DNA of 64,000 bases from Tamilnaduibacter salinus. GTDB taxonomy: Bacteria; Pseudomonadota; Gammaproteobacteria; Pseudomonadales; Oleiphilaceae. Below, in pieces: positions 44,814 to 64,000 of this stretch; the first letter of the stretch is position 1; the number at the start of each line of letters is the position of its first letter. The stretch covers positions 124,001 through 188,000 of the forward strand of contig NZ_QEKQ01000008.1 in the NCBI RefSeq assembly GCF_003096655.1, given 5' to 3'. The position numbers and the translations under genes are program-made. The notes beneath the pieces are model-generated. The model did not search any database. It had not been told where the DNA came from and was given only the letters and a program-made list of their open reading frames with translations.

Positions 44814-45028
44814 TTCGCCGCGGAATCCGCAGAAGGACGCGGAAAAGAAATGGTGTTTGCCACGGAAAAACACAGAACGCACGGAAAAGTATCGAGAAGC
44901 CCTCCGAGTTTTGTGCGGCTGGATTTTACCGTCCTGCTACTTTCCTTTCGCGCCTAAAGGGCGCTTTCCGTGTGTTTCCGTGGCTGAATCTTCTTTTTTC
45001 CGCGTCCTTCCGCGGATTCCGCGGCGAA
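44814..45028 (+). repeat. Family B element with family A nested concentrically inside
   Basis: Outer B arms: TTCGCCGCGGAATCCGCAGA at 44814 and the inverted TTCCGCGGATTCCGCGGCGAA ending 45028 (read in two pieces). The centre is an intact A element at 44859-44984. A similar nesting recurs at 59787-59982. Confidence 0.88.
44859..44984 (+). repeat. Family A element nested in family B
   Basis: GCCACGGAAAAACACAGAAC left arm, TTTCCGTGTGTTTCCGTGGC right arm, GCGCCTAAAGGGCGC hairpin inside the right arm. Confidence 0.88.
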
Positions 45029-51872: not shown

Positions 51873-53639
51873 ATGTCACCCGACGCACACCTCACCCTCC
51901 TGACTATCGGCGCTGTGTTTGCCACTCTGATTTTTACCCGCGTGTCAGCGGACCTGGTCCTGGCGGCCGCCATGGCGGTCCTGCTGGTGCTGGGAGTGCT
52001 CACGCCCGAGCAGGCTCTGGTGGGATTCAGCAACCCCGGCGTGCTGACCGTGGCCGTGCTTTATGTGATTGCTGCGGGCCTGAAACAGACCGGGGCCGTG
52101 CGGTGGTTGGCGGATCAGCTGCTCGGCGTCCCTCGTAGTGCCCGCGGTGCGCAGTTCCGGCTGATCGCCCCAACGGCAGGGCTCAGTGCATTCATGAACA
52201 ACACGGCGGTTGTGGCCATGTTCATCCCGGCGGTGCAGGAGTGGAGCCGCCGCCTGGGGCTGTCTGCGTCGCGCCTGCTTATGCCACTGTCCTATTTCGC
52301 CATCCTTGGCGGCACCTGCACGCTGATCGGAACCAGCACCAACCTGGTTGTGGACGGTCTGATCCAGTCCACCTCCGGTGACGCGCTGGGTCTGTTTGAG
52401 CTGGCCTGGGTGGGGGTGCCGCTGATTCTCGTCGGGTCTATTGTGTTTCTTCTGATTGCCCACCGGTTTCTGCCCGACCGTGGCGGGCTGATGCAACAGA
52501 TGGAGAGCGCCCGCGAGTACAGCGTTGACATGCGGGTTCCGGAGGCCAGTTTCCTGGCCGGGAAAACCATCGTCGAGGCCGGCCTGCGGAACCTGGCCTA
52601 CGGCTATCTGATGGAAATTGAGCGTGGCGGGCGACTCATGTCCGCTGTTGGCCCGGAGACAGTGCTTGAGGCCGGCGACCTGCTTCGTTTTATCGGGGAA
52701 CCGCGCTGCGCCGACGAGGTGCGCTCCATCCGGGGGTTGGCGCCGGCCAATGGCGGCTCCGAAAAACTGGCGCTGGAAAGCCATCGCCGTTGTCTGATTG
52801 AAGTCGTTCTGGGGCCGGACTTCCCGGGGTTGGGGAAGAACGTGCGAGACGCCCGCTTCCGGTCCAACTACGGCGCCGCCATTCTCGCGATTTCCCGCCG
52901 CGGTGAGCGCCTGAAGGGCAAGATCGGTGATATCCGCCTTCAGGTTGGCGATACGCTGCTGCTGGAAGGCAGTCCGGATTTCGTGGATCAATACCGTTTT
53001 CGCCGTGACTTCCTGCTGGTCAGCCTACTGAACGACGCCGGGCGCATTGATCACCGTAAAGCACCACTGTCCGCCCTGATCCTCGTCGGGATGGTGCTTT
53101 TGAACGTTGTTGGGCTGCTCAGCGTGTTCGAATCGGCACTGGTTGCCGCCGGCGCAATGCTGGCCACCCGTTGCGTCACCAGCACCCAGGCCCGGCGCGC
53201 CATCGACTATCAGGTACTCACGGTTATAGCCGCCTCGTTTGCGCTCGGGCAGGCCATGCAGGTCTCCGGCGCTGCGGACAGCATTGCCGGCCTGATACTC
53301 GGCGACGCCAGCCTCCATCCCTGGGTAGCGCTGGCACTGGTGTACCTGATCACCGCCATCATGACCGAGCTGATCACCAACAATGCCGCCGCTGTGTTGA
53401 TGTTCCCCATTGCCGTGGCTCTGGCGAACCAGCTGGACGTCAGCTTCATGCCCTACGCCATCACCGTCATGTTCGCCGCCTCAGCCAGCTTCCTCAGCCC
53501 CATCGGCTACCAGACCAACCTGATGGTGATGGGCCCCGGCGGTTACCACTTCACCGACTACCTCCGCACCGGCCTGCCCATGACGCTGGCAGTCGGTTCG
53601 ACGGTGGTTGGGTTGGTGCCGTTGATTTGGGGGTTTTAG
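51873..53639 (+). CDS. SLC13-family permease with two TrkA-C domains
   Basis: 588 aa. Two membrane halves (about 10-190 and 395-588) carrying the family motifs NNTAVVAMFIPAV and TNNAAAVLMFPIAVA, with GTSTNLVVDG in the first; between them two TrkA_C/RCK-C domains (~205-290 and ~295-375). Bacterial members of this type are thought to be sulfate transporters, and flanking cysQ and cysC support that. The stop codon TAG is the beginning of an A element (TAGCCACGG). Confidence 0.88.
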   Translation: MSPDAHLTLLTIGAVFATLIFTRVSADLVLAAAMAVLLVLGVLTPEQALVGFSNPGVLTVAVLYVIAAGLKQTGAVRWLADQLLGVPRSARGAQFRLIAPTAGLSAFMNNTAVVAMFIPAVQEWSRRLGLSASRLLMPLSYFAILGGTCTLIGTSTNLVVDGLIQSTSGDALGLFELAWVGVPLILVGSIVFLLIAHRFLPDRGGLMQQMESAREYSVDMRVPEASFLAGKTIVEAGLRNLAYGYLMEIERGGRLMSAVGPETVLEAGDLLRFIGEPRCADEVRSIRGLAPANGGSEKLALESHRRCLIEVVLGPDFPGLGKNVRDARFRSNYGAAILAISRRGERLKGKIGDIRLQVGDTLLLEGSPDFVDQYRFRRDFLLVSLLNDAGRIDHRKAPLSALILVGMVLLNVVGLLSVFESALVAAGAMLATRCVTSTQARRAIDYQVLTVIAASFALGQAMQVSGAADSIAGLILGDASLHPWVALALVYLITAIMTELITNNAAAVLMFPIAVALANQLDVSFMPYAITVMFAASASFLSPIGYQTNLMVMGPGGYHFTDYLRTGLPMTLAVGSTVVGLVPLIWGF

Positions 53640-54131
53640 CCACGGAAATACACGGAAGGCACGGAAAGGACAGAGAAACAGATCTCCATGGAAGGAAATG
53701 GGCATGAATCACCGCAATTTATTGGCTTCAGAGCTTACTTATTCGATCAAAGGTGCAATATTCGAGGTGTCCCGTGAGCTGGGGTACGGTTTTTTGGAGA
53801 GGGTCTACCAAAAGGCCCTGGTTGAAGAGCTTCTCTCGAGAGGTTTGAGTGTGGAGCAGGAGTATCCAGTCAACGTTCGGTACAAAGGGAAAGAGGTAGC
53901 GGACTTCCGTTTGGATCTCTTGGTCGAGAATCAGGTCATCATAGAGCTCAAAGCGCAGAGCAGGATGCCTGTCGGTGCAGAAGCGCAGTTGATCAACTAT
54001 TTAAGAGCAACTCGGTTCCAGATCGGTCTCCTGGTCAAACTTTTCCTATCCCAAGGCAAACGTGAAAAGAATTGTCTTGTAGGTTTCGCGCCCGAAGGGC
54101 GCTTTCCGTGCTTTCTGTGTTTTTCCGTGGC
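53639..54131 (+). mobile_element. Family A element carrying a GxxExxY gene (493 bp)
   Basis: Left arm GCCACGGAAATACACGGAAG with a third CACGG unit, immediately after the SLC13 stop; right arm ends TTTCTGTGTTTTTCCGTGGC with GCCCGAAGGGC inside it. The only thing inside is one GxxExxY gene. The arms match those of the empty A elements in this window. I propose this is the coding parent type of the short ones. Confidence 0.75.
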
Positions 54132-54177
54132 TAATCTCTGCTCTTCGCGAACCAGCCACCCCATGCTATCGTTATAA
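53704..54177 (+). CDS. GxxExxY protein, frameshifted at its 3' end
   Basis: 157 aa as read. The defining motif is GFLERVY (Gly29, Glu32, Tyr35); a PD-(D/E)XK-like core follows with DFRLDLLVE and VIIELKAQ. Function of the family is unknown. After LLV the frame becomes unlike the family and runs through the right arm of the A element. Removing one A from AAA at 54037-54039 would give LLVNFSYPKANVKRIVL and a stop at 54080-54082, the family ending, so this copy has a one-base insertion. The ATG at 53704 has AGGA eight bases upstream. Confidence 0.8.
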   Translation: MNHRNLLASELTYSIKGAIFEVSRELGYGFLERVYQKALVEELLSRGLSVEQEYPVNVRYKGKEVADFRLDLLVENQVIIELKAQSRMPVGAEAQLINYLRATRFQIGLLVKLFLSQGKREKNCLVGFAPEGRFPCFLCFSVANLCSSRTSHPMLSL

Positions 54178-59782: not shown

Positions 59783-59786
59783 TATG

Positions 59787-59982
59787 GCCGCGGAATCCTC
59801 AGAATAGTGCGGAAGAGTGAATGGTCAGCCACGGAATCCACTGAAGAACACGGAAAATGAGCGTGAACATGTTCAATATGCCACTTTTCTCACGCCCGGA
59901 GGGCGCTTCCGTGTTTTTCGGTGTTCTTCCGTGGCAAATACAATCTCTTTTTCCGCGTCCTTCCGAGGTTTCCGCGGCGAAA
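59787..59982 (+). repeat. Family B element with family A nested inside
   Basis: Outer arms GCCGCGGAATCCTCAGAATA and TTTCCGCGTCCTTCCGAGG plus TTTCCGCGGCGAA; inner A at 59828-59935 (GCCACGGAATCCACTGAAGA to CTTCCGTGGC, CGCCCGGAGGGCG hairpin). Same architecture as 44814-45028. Confidence 0.86.
59828..59935 (+). repeat. Family A element nested in family B
   Basis: Full A arms with the hairpin inside the right arm; centred in the B element. Confidence 0.86.
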
Positions 59983-60014: not shown

Positions 60015-62537
60015 ATGAACCGACTTGTCAGAAACCTTGTTGCTCTTTCCGTAACGGTCACGGCTCCCTTTGCGGGAGCGCAATCCCTCTCCCAATCCCA
60101 GATCGACCGCTTCATGTCGCTCCCCCAGGCCCAGCAGGAAGCGCTGGCGGAGCAATATGGAGTGGATCTGGAGAACCTGCGCGAGCAGACCGGTGGGTCC
60201 GACCAGCCCGAGGAGCCCCCTCAACCGGTGGTCAAACCGCTTGCTGAGGCGGAAAGCGAGGAGGAATCGGGAAGATCGGACTCGTCGAAGCCATCAACCG
60301 ACGACCAGGGGGAAGCACAGGGCAGCGGTGAAGACTCGCTGGAGCCGTATGGCTACGAACTCTTTGCGGGCGCGCCCAGTACCTTCGCACCGGTGACCGA
60401 AATTCCTATGCCGTCGGATTACGTGATCGGGCCGGGGGATGTGGTTCGGGTTCAGCTGTATGGCAAGAAAAACGCCCAGTTTGAGTTGGCGGTTAACCGG
60501 GATGGGAATATCGAGATCCCCGAGATCGGCCCTCACAACGTGGCTGGCCAGACGTTCCGTGAGCTTCAGGCCAACATCAAGAACCTCATCTCAGAAAGCT
60601 TCATCGGCGTGCGTGCGAGTGTCAGCCTGGGTGAGCTGCGCAGCATGCGCATCTTTGTGCTGGGCGAGGCGCGGACTCCGGGCGCTTACACCGTCAGCTC
60701 GCTGTCGACCATTACCAACGCTCTGTTTGTCTCCGGTGGTGTTCAGCGTTCCGGCTCCTTGCGACGCATTAAACACAAGCGCGATGGTGAGGTCATTGGT
60801 GAGCTCGACCTGTACGACCTGCTTCTGGACGGGGACACCTCCGACGACGCTCGCCTTCAGCCGGGCGACGTCATCTTCATACCCCCGGTTGGACCGAGGG
60901 TCGGCATCAGCGGCGAGGTCTACCGCCCGGCGCTCTACGAGCTGGACGGTGCCACCACGGTCGAACAGGCGGTTCAGCTTGCCGGGGGGATGACCGCACA
61001 GGCCTACCCGCAGATCACCCGTATCGAACGGACCAACGACGACTATCTCCGGGTTATCGCCGAAGCCAATCTGACGAAAGCGGCCGGCCGGCAAATGGCC
61101 GTTCAGCCCGGTGATCGCATCAGTATTGCGGCCATTTCCGACATCACCGGCCAGTACGTGGAAGTGAAGGGTGCCGCCACCCGCACCGGCCGCTTCGCCT
61201 GGGTGCCGGGCATGCGCATCAGTTCCCTGTTCACCTCGCTGGACGCCAGCCTCATGCCGGTGGCCGACAAGCGCTACGCCGCCGTAGTACGGACTGATCC
61301 GGACGATGACACCATTTCCGTCATCAACGTTCGCCTACGGAACGCGGTCCAGAATCCGGGCAGTGCCGCCGATATCCAGCTTCAGGAAAAGGACCAGCTC
61401 CTGGTTTTCTCGGATGCCGGGAAGGTGAAGGGCGGTGAGGAAGGTCGCAACTTCACTCGCGAGCAACTGTTTAACCCCGTTCTGCGTCGCCTGAAAGCCC
61501 AGGCCGGCCCGGGCCATCCGCAGCAGACCGTGAGTATTTCCGGCCCCGTGCGATACCCGGGTGAATATCCCATGCCAGCGTCCCACGCTGTGCGGGATGC
61601 CATTTGGGTGGCCGGGGGGCTCAAGGACTCCGCTTCCCTGTACGCCGCCGAAATCGCCCGTTATGAAACGCCCGAGCAGGGCAGCACCGAAACCCGAATC
61701 ATTGAAATCAACCTCAAAACAGCAATGAACGGCAACGGCGCTGAGCGTCTTCAGAGCCGGGACCGGCTGCTCGTTAAACGCATCCCGGAGTATGCACGGC
61801 AGCGCACGGTTTCTCTGGAGGGCGAAATTGAGTACCCGGGCGAATACACGTTCCGCAAGGGAGAGAGTCTCCAGAGCGTGATTCGGCGCGCGGGTGGACT
61901 GACCGACAACGCGTTCCCCAGAGGCGCTGTGTTCACGCGCGAAGACCTCAAGCGTCGGGAGGCTCAGCGCCTGAAGGAAGCGGAGGAGCGCCTCAAGGGT
62001 GACCTGTTGGGGCAGCAACTCCAGGGTGAAGACTTCGGGAATCAGGCGAATGCCGATTCAGAGAGCACATTGGAGGATCTGCTGGACCAAGTCCAGGATG
62101 CCCGTCCTGTCGGACGAATGGTGATCGACCTTCAGGCAGTCCTCAATGAGGGGGAATATCAGTCCATCCGACTGCAGGATGGCGACACCCTCACGGTTCC
62201 GGAGATCCCGCAGTCCGTGTCGGTTTTCGGCGAAGTCCAGTTCCCCACCAGCCACTTGCATAAGCCGGGCCTGACCGCCGAAGACTATATCGACCGCAGC
62301 GGCGGCCCAACGGCCCAGGCCGACGAAGACCGCGTCTACGTCGTCAAAGCCGACGGCTCCGTCATCCTCCCGGAAGACAGCAACTGGTTCGGCGGCACCC
62401 CAACCAACCTCGGCCCCGGCGACACCATCATCATGCCCATCGACGTCGACCGAATCAGCCAGCTGAAACTGTGGACCAACGTCAGCCAGATCGTTTATCA
62501 AATTGCATTGGGCGCAGCGGCAGTGGGTAACTTGTAA
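60015..62537 (+). CDS. Multi-SLBB polysaccharide export protein (Wza-like)
   Basis: 840 aa. Signal peptide (LVALSVTVTAPFAGA), a low-complexity acidic linker (residues ~55-110), the Poly_export domain beginning YVIGPGDVVRVQLYGKKNAQ, and several SLBB domains (SIRVFVLGEARTPGAY-type, ISGEVYRPALYELDG, VSISGPVRYPGEYPMP, VSLEGEIEYPGEYTFRKG and SVFGEVQFPTSHLHKPG). Ends in a hydrophobic stretch (IALGAAAVGNL), the usual outer-membrane helix region. Such long proteins export exopolysaccharide through the outer membrane. Two bits of evidence differ from E. coli Wza: no lipobox and more SLBB repeats. Confidence 0.88.
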   Translation: MNRLVRNLVALSVTVTAPFAGAQSLSQSQIDRFMSLPQAQQEALAEQYGVDLENLREQTGGSDQPEEPPQPVVKPLAEAESEEESGRSDSSKPSTDDQGEAQGSGEDSLEPYGYELFAGAPSTFAPVTEIPMPSDYVIGPGDVVRVQLYGKKNAQFELAVNRDGNIEIPEIGPHNVAGQTFRELQANIKNLISESFIGVRASVSLGELRSMRIFVLGEARTPGAYTVSSLSTITNALFVSGGVQRSGSLRRIKHKRDGEVIGELDLYDLLLDGDTSDDARLQPGDVIFIPPVGPRVGISGEVYRPALYELDGATTVEQAVQLAGGMTAQAYPQITRIERTNDDYLRVIAEANLTKAAGRQMAVQPGDRISIAAISDITGQYVEVKGAATRTGRFAWVPGMRISSLFTSLDASLMPVADKRYAAVVRTDPDDDTISVINVRLRNAVQNPGSAADIQLQEKDQLLVFSDAGKVKGGEEGRNFTREQLFNPVLRRLKAQAGPGHPQQTVSISGPVRYPGEYPMPASHAVRDAIWVAGGLKDSASLYAAEIARYETPEQGSTETRIIEINLKTAMNGNGAERLQSRDRLLVKRIPEYARQRTVSLEGEIEYPGEYTFRKGESLQSVIRRAGGLTDNAFPRGAVFTREDLKRREAQRLKEAEERLKGDLLGQQLQGEDFGNQANADSESTLEDLLDQVQDARPVGRMVIDLQAVLNEGEYQSIRLQDGDTLTVPEIPQSVSVFGEVQFPTSHLHKPGLTAEDYIDRSGGPTAQADEDRVYVVKADGSVILPEDSNWFGGTPTNLGPGDTIIMPIDVDRISQLKLWTNVSQIVYQIALGAAAVGNL

Positions 62538-62541
62538 AAGA

Positions 62542-63018
62542 TTCGCCGCGGAAACCGCGGAGGGACGCGGAAGAAAAAACATAGAGAACAAAGAGGGAGG
62601 TACATGCTCAGGGATGAGGAGCTGACCTATCGGATACGGGGTTGTATCTATGAGGTTTATCGGCAGCTTGGCCACGGGTTTCTGGAAAGCGTTTATCAAA
62701 AGGCGCTGGTGGCAGAGTTAGGGCGACAAGGCCTTGCCGTGGAGCAGGAATGGCCCGTACAGATCTTCTATAAAGGAACCGATGTTGGCGAGTTCAGGTT
62801 AGATCTGGTTGTCGAGCGTCGAGTGATTCTGGAGCTAAAGGCGCAAAAAACGTTACCGCGAGGAGCGGAGACACAACTGCTCAATTACTTGAAAGCAACA
62901 GGAATAAAGCTTGGCCTCCTGGCCAACTTCACGTACCCAAAAACATACGTCAAACGAATCATTTTAGAGAACCAATAATTCATTCATTTCCGCGCCCTTC
63001 CGCGGATTCTGCGGCGAA
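62542..63018 (+). mobile_element. Family B element carrying a GxxExxY gene (477 bp)
   Basis: Left arm TTCGCCGCGGAAACCGCGGA with a third CGCGGAA unit, right arm TTTCCGCGCCCTTCCGCGGA ending GCGGCGAA. Encloses one GxxExxY gene and nothing else; same plan and almost the same length as the A element at 53639-54131. Confidence 0.75.
62604..62978 (+). CDS. GxxExxY protein, intact
   Basis: 124 aa, the normal family length. Motif GFLESVY (Gly25, Glu28, Tyr31), then EFRLDLVVERRVILELKAQ giving the Asp and Glu-x-Lys of a PD-(D/E)XK-type site, and the family end LLANFTYPKTYVKRIIL. About 60% identical by eye to the copy at 53704, which lacks this ending because of a frameshift. Nuclease activity has not been shown for the family to my knowledge. 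ATG 62604 follows GGGAGG. Confidence 0.9.
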   Translation: MLRDEELTYRIRGCIYEVYRQLGHGFLESVYQKALVAELGRQGLAVEQEWPVQIFYKGTDVGEFRLDLVVERRVILELKAQKTLPRGAETQLLNYLKATGIKLGLLANFTYPKTYVKRIILENQ

Positions 63019-63024
63019 AAGAGA

Positions 63025-63153
63025 AGCCTGCTCTATCTGGCGAAGCGACTGAAGATCATTGAGGGTAGGCAGGCAAAGGACCTGATCGAGAAAACCAAGC
63101 TGATCAGCTCAATGCTCCACAGGCTCTCTAAAAGCATCGAGCAAGGAAGCTAG
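63025..63153 (+). pseudogene. Remnant of a four-helix-bundle (23S rRNA IVP-like) protein
   Basis: Forty-two codons, no start. Translated SLLYLAKRLKIIEGRQAKDL continuing with IEKTKLISSMLHRLSKSIEQGS and a TAG, which matches the C-terminal helices of four-helix-bundle proteins (typical ...LEELLEEIEEISKMLNGLIKSL). The 5' part is missing and the fragment begins right at the end of the B element, so the B element or a deletion truncated it. Confidence 0.65.
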
Positions 63154-63236
63154 AAGCTTTAAGACCTTAAAACTTTCAAACTTTAATGCTTTAAAACCAA
63201 AAACTTCCGCGTCCTTCCGCGGGTTCCGCGGCGAAC
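63154..63236 (+). repeat. D motif and B right arm
   Basis: CTTTAAGACCTTAAAACTTT with related TTAAAACC (D), then TTCCGCGTCCTTCCGCGGGT plus TCCGCGGCGAA (B). No gene between here and 63309. Confidence 0.75.
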
Positions 63237-63309: not shown

Positions 63310-63609
63310 ATGCGACTAAGCCCCATTGAGATCAAAGTCATCAAAAATTCCGTCAAGGAAGTCTTCGGCAACAAGGCGGAGGTGTCACTGTTTGGCTCTC
63401 GCACCGACGACGAGGCCAGGGGTGGGGACATTGACCTGTTGGTGAAAACGCCTGATCCCGTCGCACATCCCGCCTGGGATACCGCAAAGCTTCAGGCGAA
63501 AATCATCAAACAGCTGGGTGACCGGAAAGTCGATATATTGCTGGACGCACCGAATATCCCCAAAGCCGGTATCCATCAGGTCGCCAGCTCGCAAGGGATC
63601 GCTCTGTGA
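63310..63609 (+). CDS. MNT nucleotidyltransferase antitoxin (second copy)
   Basis: 99 aa. [19 protein letters not shown] carries GSx9DxD, and VDILLDAPN the third acidic residue. Clearly homologous to the protein at 48948. Overlaps the HEPN start by four bases. Confidence 0.86.
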
Positions 63610-64000
63610 AGACTACCCGGGAAATGGAAGAAAGGCTCAGATTTCTGAGTCGTGTAGTGAGCAAAGAAATAAAACACCTCGATTACGCGGCAAGTCAGGT
63701 CTTTGTCGATGCCTTTACCTTTGAGGCGGTAGAGGCGTTGGATGCCAACCCTGAACTGGCGCTTAAGGTAGAGGCCTTCACAAGCCGTTTCTGCCGCCTA
63801 CAAGACACCCTGGGAGACAAACTTTTGCCGGTGCTGCTTAAAGCGCTGGGAGAACCCGACAGGGCCTTGTTGATCAACCTTGAGAAAGCCGAAAAGTTTG
63901 GTTGGCTGGATTCGGCTGAACAGTGGATCGCGCTCCGGCAGTTGCGTAATCAGATGATTCACGAATACATCGAAGATGCCCGGACTCTGTTTGACGCGCT
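63606..64000 (+). CDS. HEPN toxin partner, truncated by window end
   Basis: GTG start at 63606 overlapping the MNT stop (GTGA). The visible 131 codons read [20 protein letters not shown] at the start and contain RNQMIHEY, the Rx4HxY HEPN motif, near residue 117. The frame is open to the last base. Homologous to the protein at 49253. The 3' end is outside the window. Confidence 0.82.

Follow-up and report, generated by a model that had tools for sequence, protein, structure and literature searches.

GxxExxY genes between inverted arrays of 7-bp units: a candidate one-gene mobile element

The GxxExxY gene described here lies between inverted arms built of 7-bp units, and elements of this kind were found in 14 named bacterial phyla. 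We consider it probable that the whole represents a minimal, selfish mobile element with a single gene, whose product, a Cas4-like PD-(D/E)XK nuclease, recognises the arms of its own element; both the recognition and the mobilisation are inferred. We propose that the nuclease would bind the units of its own arms, for which there are no binding data, and would then cut at the arms or at the target, a cleavage that has not been observed. Host repair after cutting could move the element (no movement was observed), and arm-only relatives might be moved in trans by the same nuclease, as we infer. The element is assigned only broadly, to mobile elements that have inverted arms and gene-less derivatives, since a tested defining feature was not met for RAYT/REPIN systems, for DDE insertion sequences or for 23S rRNA intervening sequences.

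The B element and its relatives in the host genome

The window, that is, the whole stretch of 64,000 nucleotides analysed, contains the following features:

44814..45028, no strand: arm-only B pair around an A pair (nested); the right A arm is below the arm pattern used
53636..54134, + strand: A element with the second GxxExxY gene of the genome; CACGGAA units, steps 10 and 9 bp; gene frameshifted
59784..59981, no strand: arm-only B pair around an arm-only A pair (nested)
62542..62573, + strand: left arm of the B element; three CGCGGAA-type units, steps 9 then 10 bp
62604..62978, + strand: intact GxxExxY gene, 124 aa, predicted PD-(D/E)XK_3 nuclease with the motif residues present
62988..63018, - strand: right arm of the B element, a copy of the left arm in inverted orientation
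63016..63150, + strand: remnant of the C-terminus of a four-helix-bundle protein of the 23S rRNA intervening-sequence type (PF05635, E 0.01, below the curated cut-off)
63204..63235, - strand: third B arm, oriented as the right arm; a 694-bp compound would result from pairing it with the left arm

A preliminary description of this DNA had placed an intact GxxExxY gene within B arms, and this was borne out by an uninterrupted 124-aa ORF with an inverted three-unit array on either side; the length of 477 bp given there is correct. Its statement that the B arms have the spacing of the A arms held only in part, as the steps are 9 then 10 bp in B and 10 then 9 bp in A. It mentioned neither the third B arm nor the S23-type remnant. 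The remnant is located between the right B arm and the third B arm, and its profile match covers positions 71-105 of the 106 in PF05635; the third arm is complementary to the left arm at 94%.

The left B arm starts four bases after the stop codon of an 840-aa SLBB/polysaccharide-export gene. With a protein gene adjoining it, the element is not in 23S rRNA, and this feature of the 23S intervening sequences is unmet. No DDE transposase was found in the B element, the encoded protein matching PDDEXK_3 only in Pfam, and a minus-strand ORF that overlaps the element (62058-62699) had no Pfam family match. The self-complementary CCGCGG is present in both B arms; folding of single arms was no better than that of shuffles in the three arms tested (z -1.09, -0.56 and 0.39), and an Rfam search returned one match, far under its gathering score. 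After the third B arm, 63310-63998 holds a nucleotidyltransferase gene (PF01909) and an overlapping downstream ORF without a Pfam match. We presume that these are perhaps an MntA/HepT-type pair; the likeness of the nucleotidyltransferase to MntA antitoxins is weak and below the cut-off.

The GxxExxY protein matches TIGR04256 over residues 6-120 (E 2.4e-40; 137.5 bits, curated cut-off 35) and, as its only Pfam family, PF13366 (E 3.2e-39; 134.4 bits, curated cut-off 22). It has G25xxE28xxY31, D67, E77, K79 and Q91; across 76 sequences G25, E28, Y31, D67 and K79 are invariant and E77 is kept in at least 90%. No sequence relative of known structure was found (best E 0.17). The AlphaFold2 model made from the 76-sequence alignment (pLDDT 95.9, pTM 0.88) had the Cas4 protein SSO0001 (4ic1) as its top Foldseek match (E 3.8e-5), followed by weaker matches to lambda-type exonucleases, RecE, MGME1, tRNA-splicing endonucleases and Hjc. 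VIA-align gave Z 9.5 for 4ic1 (rmsd 4.4, 103 aligned), 8.3 for the CinA/CinB complex and 8.2 for 3ijm, while Hjc (Z 7.3, rmsd 3.6, 87 aligned) is below 8 and counts as weak. On the basis of this model, we predict a small PD-(D/E)XK nuclease of Cas4/RecB-like fold with intact nuclease motifs and unknown substrate. It has the PD-(D/E)XK fold in common with Cas4, lambda exonuclease and Hjc, but differs from them in its length of 124 aa, its own gene family and an identity of only 9-19% over the first 20 fold matches. Since the similarity to Cas4 and Hjc is one of fold only, it does not show function.

In the host genome (3.40 Mb, 23 contigs) there are two matches to GxxExxY, both of them inside the window. 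The gene of the A element, near 53.7 kb, has its frame broken near the C-terminus, and its family match ends at 104 of 116. The arms are far more numerous than the genes: with up to 2 mismatches allowed, the 3.4-Mb genome has 71 copies of the triple B unit and none of the reversed-pattern control. We counted nesting in the window and in L001-L032, which are the loci from 30 of these 71 matches and the two GxxExxY loci. Of the 16 arm-only B pairs there, 14 contain one A arm or more, and in 8 of the 16 the A arms face both ways, for the most part some 13-26 bp inward of the B arms; the two pairs without an A arm, both in L024, hold TTTGAAAG/TTTTAAAG-type repeats instead. The interiors of the arm-only copies have only their ends, or nothing, in common with those of the gene-bearing elements, and the arm-only copies of this genome are therefore not recent internal deletions, a point that weighs against our explanation. 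The best reading is that A and B are two lineages of the element here, each with its own arm-only copies. A short hairpin of the GCCC-loop-GGGC type was seen by a simple pattern in 19 of 24 A elements, for example at about 2089-2101 and at 54089-54103; in the A copies of the window it is mostly just inside the right arm and is common to gene-bearing and arm-only copies.

Arms and protein across phyla

A scan of genome contigs confirmed at least 572 relatives of the GxxExxY protein, the best 80 of which were used. With other loci added, the set comprised 262 loci, which came to 222 distinct genes after removal of 40 duplicates and to 218 after removal of 4 with short flanks; 71 of these 218 lacked strong units and were excluded from the tree set of 147. 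The distribution of the family is patchy, with GxxExxY in 5 of 293 genomes of an order sample, 44 of 397 of a phylum sample and 18 of 23 in one genus.

Inverted arms were found at 176 of the 218 GxxExxY loci, compared to 8 of 237 decoy positions, 98 of 1304 cross pairs and 3 of 1090 shuffles, and the earlier suggestion that the link between arms and GxxExxY is not due to chance is broadly supported by these counts. The remaining 42 loci, which had no inverted arms by the score used, count against our explanation. Iterated 7-mers flank the gene on both sides in 147 of the 218 loci, and in none of 218 shuffles or 237 decoys. The arms usually consist of two to four 7-bp units with a consensus of about C-R-C-N-R-A-N, mostly at steps of 8-11 bp, which is near one helical turn: 9 bp (285 steps), 10 (207), 8 (79), 11 (29) and 12 (12). 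The unit finder itself accepts only A at position 6 and a purine (A or G) at position 5, with C within positions 1-3 and steps of 8-12 bp, so that position 6 is uninformative and the consensus is in part a product of the search rules. Of the 107 elements with equal unit numbers, 89 have an identical step pattern in both arms, where 14.8 would be expected and 26 was the maximum. Elements have a median outer length of 491 bp and an end consensus of TTTA(A/G)C ahead of the first unit. At the level of sequence, these data establish the arms as a regular part of the GxxExxY element. The left arms of L062 and L103 have grown to 13 and 19 ACAGGAT units, respectively.

Orientation was counted at 132 of the 147 loci, with ORFs of at least 80 aa called mechanically; the 15 loci dropped comprised 11 with a short flank, 2 with a far neighbour and 2 without an ORF. 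Both neighbours are co-directional with the element in 83 of the 132 and both are opposed in 11, and the stop codon of a co-directional upstream neighbour is within 30 bp of the arm in 88 of 103 cases (median 2). As far as these ORF calls go, the elements are demonstrably situated mostly just past a stop codon and just ahead of the next gene, and run the same way as the genes beside them.

The preliminary description had proposed comparing protein phylogeny with arm type, with a lack of correlation as its refutation. The two proved to be correlated in the covariation set of 147 loci, which represents 89 genome labels and 14 named phyla, with 3 loci of unknown phylum (for part of the phylum sample of the window, the label Pseudomonadota was assigned from kinship and the names of other loci). 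On the tree of the 147 proteins, unit position 7 requires 14 changes, compared to a shuffled mean of 62 and a minimum of 56 in 200 shuffles. Fewer changes than in shuffles were likewise needed for position 5 (25 vs 40.6), position 4 (39 vs 57.5), positions 1-3 (41 vs 63.7) and unit spacing in 74 rows (24 vs 43.9). In a first tree of 85 proteins, units ending in G fell, two exceptions aside, within a single clade of 26 (SH-aLRT 97), and clades with ACAGGAT units spanned Verrucomicrobiota, Planctomycetota, Pseudomonadota and Thermodesulfobacteriota. Agreement at position 7 climbs with protein identity over five bins (0.15, 0.25, 0.64, 0.87 and 0.94). The nearest protein of another phylum predicts position 7 in 124 of 144 cases (shuffled mean 52, maximum of 100 shuffles 69) and the complete unit in 34 of these 144; the nearest protein of any other genome does so in 132 and 58 of 147, and the nearest protein of the same genome in 58 (shuffle maximum 51) and 12 of 92. 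The full-unit counts and the counts for any other genome and for the same genome all exceed the highest of 100 shuffles. For pairs from different phyla the Mantel rho was 0.23, the highest of 300 permutations reaching 0.08; within genomes (93 pairs) rho was not significant, being reached by 293 of 2000 permutations. Genome G684 has five GxxExxY copies with five different units. Sequence comparison shows that unit class goes with protein clade across phyla, and that copies within a single genome differ in their unit class. The expectation of one protein subtype per arm subtype was thus met for arm class and protein clade, and was not met in the stricter sense of one arm per protein, the full unit being predicted in only 58 of 147.

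Two protein columns were considered as sites of a residue-to-base code. T or S stands at the column of the window residue N94 in 52 of 56 proteins with G-ending units and in 4 of 91 with other units, and T stands at the column of T8 in 77 of 96 with G at unit position 5 and in 1 of 39 with A; L249 and L250 have units that end in G despite N at the N94 column. We did not retain the attribution of such a code to these columns, as only 4 and 6 independent contrasts fell on supported branches and the sign tests were not significant.

An alternative that we regard as unlikely places the element at the RNA level: the two arms would pair in a polycistronic transcript, a double-strand RNase would excise the element, and the protein would be incidental or would act on RNA. 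It draws on the mostly sense orientation between co-directional genes, on the S23-type remnant adjoining the B element and on the tRNA-splicing endonucleases among the fold matches, and there is a precedent in the Coxiella 23S intervening sequence, for which the accessible part of the report describes excision by RNase III and tandem heptamers by the S23 ORF (PMC4990558). The spacers of the two arms of an element also match each other at 65%, compared to 40% for the spacers of other elements, as pairing would have it. The units, however, match at 94%, and pairing alone predicts no such gap between units and spacers. In addition, the unit class tracks the protein clade, and the top fold matches are DNA nucleases. 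The excess of unit match over spacer match in these alignments favours recognition of sequence over mere pairing, although a role of RNA or of a cruciform still has room.

It is also conceivable, and in our estimation quite improbable, that the arms are a separate repeat family mobilised by an unknown enzyme, with GxxExxY as frequent cargo and the correlation reflecting co-inheritance. The absence of a transposase from the element, the arms without a gene in some genomes and the presence of arms at four-helix-bundle genes as well would all be in keeping with this. Co-inheritance alone is nevertheless a poor account of the covariation, because in pairs from different phyla the outer units become more alike as protein identity increases (from 0.55 to 0.81), whereas the DNA between arm and gene remains near chance similarity (0.25-0.32) and that outside the element is at 0.25-0.29. 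Moreover, several unit classes are found within one genome, and the arms of the four-helix-bundle genes are of another design, namely head-to-tail period-7 repeats.

Empty sites, gene-less copies and inferred movement

Further support for a mobile element with its own nuclease comes from sites that are empty in relatives. We searched the 23 genomes of one genus for the joined flanks of four sites, which from the flanking translations we take to be the pheA-hisC, trpD-trpC, bluB-cobQ and ribF-ileS junctions. At the first (pheA-hisC), 8 of the 13 loci examined were empty (gap -14 to 10 bp) and 5 had inserts. The trpD-trpC site was empty in the single locus examined, and the bluB-cobQ site in 3 of 5. 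One first-site insert (L180) has CACGAAG arms around a GxxExxY piece (query residues 72-118, E 3e-12), and L186, at the ileS site, has kept its arms around GxxExxY residues 24-99 (E 9e-38). These alignments identify both loci as gene-deleted copies that have retained their arms. The other four of the five first-site inserts gave no GxxExxY match, which counts against our explanation.

Exact triples were counted in the 293 genomes of the order sample, which are the host and 292 others. The exact A triple occurs 53 times in the host and 1-5 times in 7 of the others, the matches in G051 and G063 being overlapping tandem arrays; the exact B triple occurs 36 times in the host and once in a single other genome. 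The exact CACAGAG triple, absent from the host, is present 15 times in G226, 9 times in G160 and twice in G263, where one of the two is an arm of the genome’s own gene-bearing element. These are the three sampled genomes with the matching gene class (units CACAAAG, CACTGAG and CACAGAG). None of the three triples was found in genome G060, whose two GxxExxY genes have other units. From these counts, arm-only copies appear largely to track the gene. Against our explanation stand the CACAGAG triples in seven genomes without a detected GxxExxY (G243 with 7, G082 and G266 with 4 each, G282 with 2, and G030, G083 and G142 with a single one), as well as the weaker tie of the exact unit compared to the unit class and the non-significant Mantel rho within genomes. 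These triples are dispersed in G243, G082 and G282, and three of the four in G266 overlap; G243 and G282 belong to the genus of G160 and G263.

Taken together, the empty sites, the gene-deleted copies with arms and the occurrence of exact A and B triples in multiple copies almost only in the host indicate a mobile element. It is highly unlikely that the protein merely autoregulates through its arms as the product of a chromosomal nuclease gene of defence or addiction type, for although three helically phased repeats look like an operator array and a nucleotidyltransferase gene with weak, sub-threshold MntA-antitoxin likeness is a neighbour, there are two inverted arrays, one of them past the stop codon, and dozens of gene-less arm copies, empty sites and deletions that keep the arms.

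How a mobile element of this kind might move can be addressed in part from its copies. In genome G664, two copies whose flanks are unrelated (L326 and L333) share 82% identity over 510 bp, and the differences between the copies are common to both arms of each. Within each copy the arms are identical over the unit array, including the change that distinguishes the copies. Of 48 independent pairs, 34 showed greater similarity between the left and right arms of one element than between the left arms of related elements; in 2 the similarities were equal and in 12 the order was reversed (Wilcoxon p 4e-4). Several pairs of same-site orthologues display the opposite of such homogenisation. That one arm is copied from the other during movement is only suggested by these data. 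No clear target-site duplication was found in 89 elements (best 12 of 110 length-offset combinations). In the same elements, 2-bp duplications were in excess at the terminal dinucleotide (up to 23 vs 6.7), which we read as palindromic ends, and 4-bp duplications numbered 7 vs 3.8 and 2 vs 0.0. In the absence of a clear target-site duplication, there is no indication of movement in the manner of an ordinary DDE transposase, and the exact ends can be placed only to within a few bases.

Carriage by plasmids or phages was considered and set aside: the window protein matched 8 of 72,556 plasmid records, and the L126 protein matched 0 of 50,697 phage records.

Relation to known systems

In RAYT/REPIN systems, a small single gene lies between inverted repeats, many gene-less inverted pairs are present per genome and the repeat type is tied to the protein; RAYTs are Y1/HUH enzymes and REPs are hairpins. 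The element described here is alike in having one small gene, inverted arms, gene-less pairs and a tie between repeat and protein, but its protein is of the PD-(D/E)XK type without a match to Y1 (HUH) transposases, and its arms are 7-mer arrays that gave no sign of hairpin folding beyond that of shuffles in the three arms tested. Insertion sequences and MITEs likewise have inverted terminal arms and come in gene-bearing and gene-less forms, as do our elements, which differ from them in the lack of a transposase match and of a clear target-site duplication.

In size, inverted ends, heptamers and a single small ORF, the element resembles the 23S rRNA intervening sequences, as far as these are documented in the accessible part of the literature. 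That of Coxiella, which has been termed selfish, is described there as a 428-nt sequence with inverted ends and a single small ORF (S23), next to which tandem GACAGAT heptamers are located; its excision is due to RNase III (PMC4990558). Our element differs in encoding PDDEXK_3 instead of an S23 ORF and in being inserted between protein genes, and the heptamers of the intervening sequences are arranged head-to-tail.

Open-access literature in PubMed Central did not yield a description of an inverted heptamer repeat class of this type, and the name PDDEXK_3 was not found there. The passages of this literature that name GxxExxY, so far as accessible, give no function and nothing on arms, and six arm strings had only irrelevant matches in the text available. 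We suggest tentatively, and short of calling it probable, that the elements constitute an undescribed, widespread class of transposable element in which a stand-alone PD-(D/E)XK protein is the sole enzyme and helically phased 7-mer arrays are the ends. Such a class would be further defined by a residue-to-base code with dozens of arm classes, insertion without target duplication at stop-start operon junctions, gene-less pairs that move in trans and the renewal of one arm from the other.

Proteins annotated as GxxExxY occur in many phyla, and our data suggest for them a testable role as part of a mobile element, probably in reading its ends. The natural pairs of protein and repeat offer a ready series for learning how a 124-aa nuclease recognises DNA. 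The elements also account for a class of inverted heptamer repeats, and they may provide a link to the long-unexplained 23S rRNA intervening sequences. Arrays of the heptamer TAACTGA have been reported from Beggiatoaceae, in the portions of the sources at hand (PMC4679880; PMC4853749), and may be kin to the arms of our elements, a kinship that is untested.

S23-type genes (L195-L222) were present in 18 of 40 genomes, and 20 of the 33 matches listed were examined. Inverted arms with a score above 25, reached by 11% of cross pairs, flank 15 of these 20 loci, and the elements measure 408-742 bp. Their arms, head-to-tail period-7 repeats of the GTGAGAT, AAGCTAC and AGTTGAC types, represent a second arm design alongside the one seen with GxxExxY.
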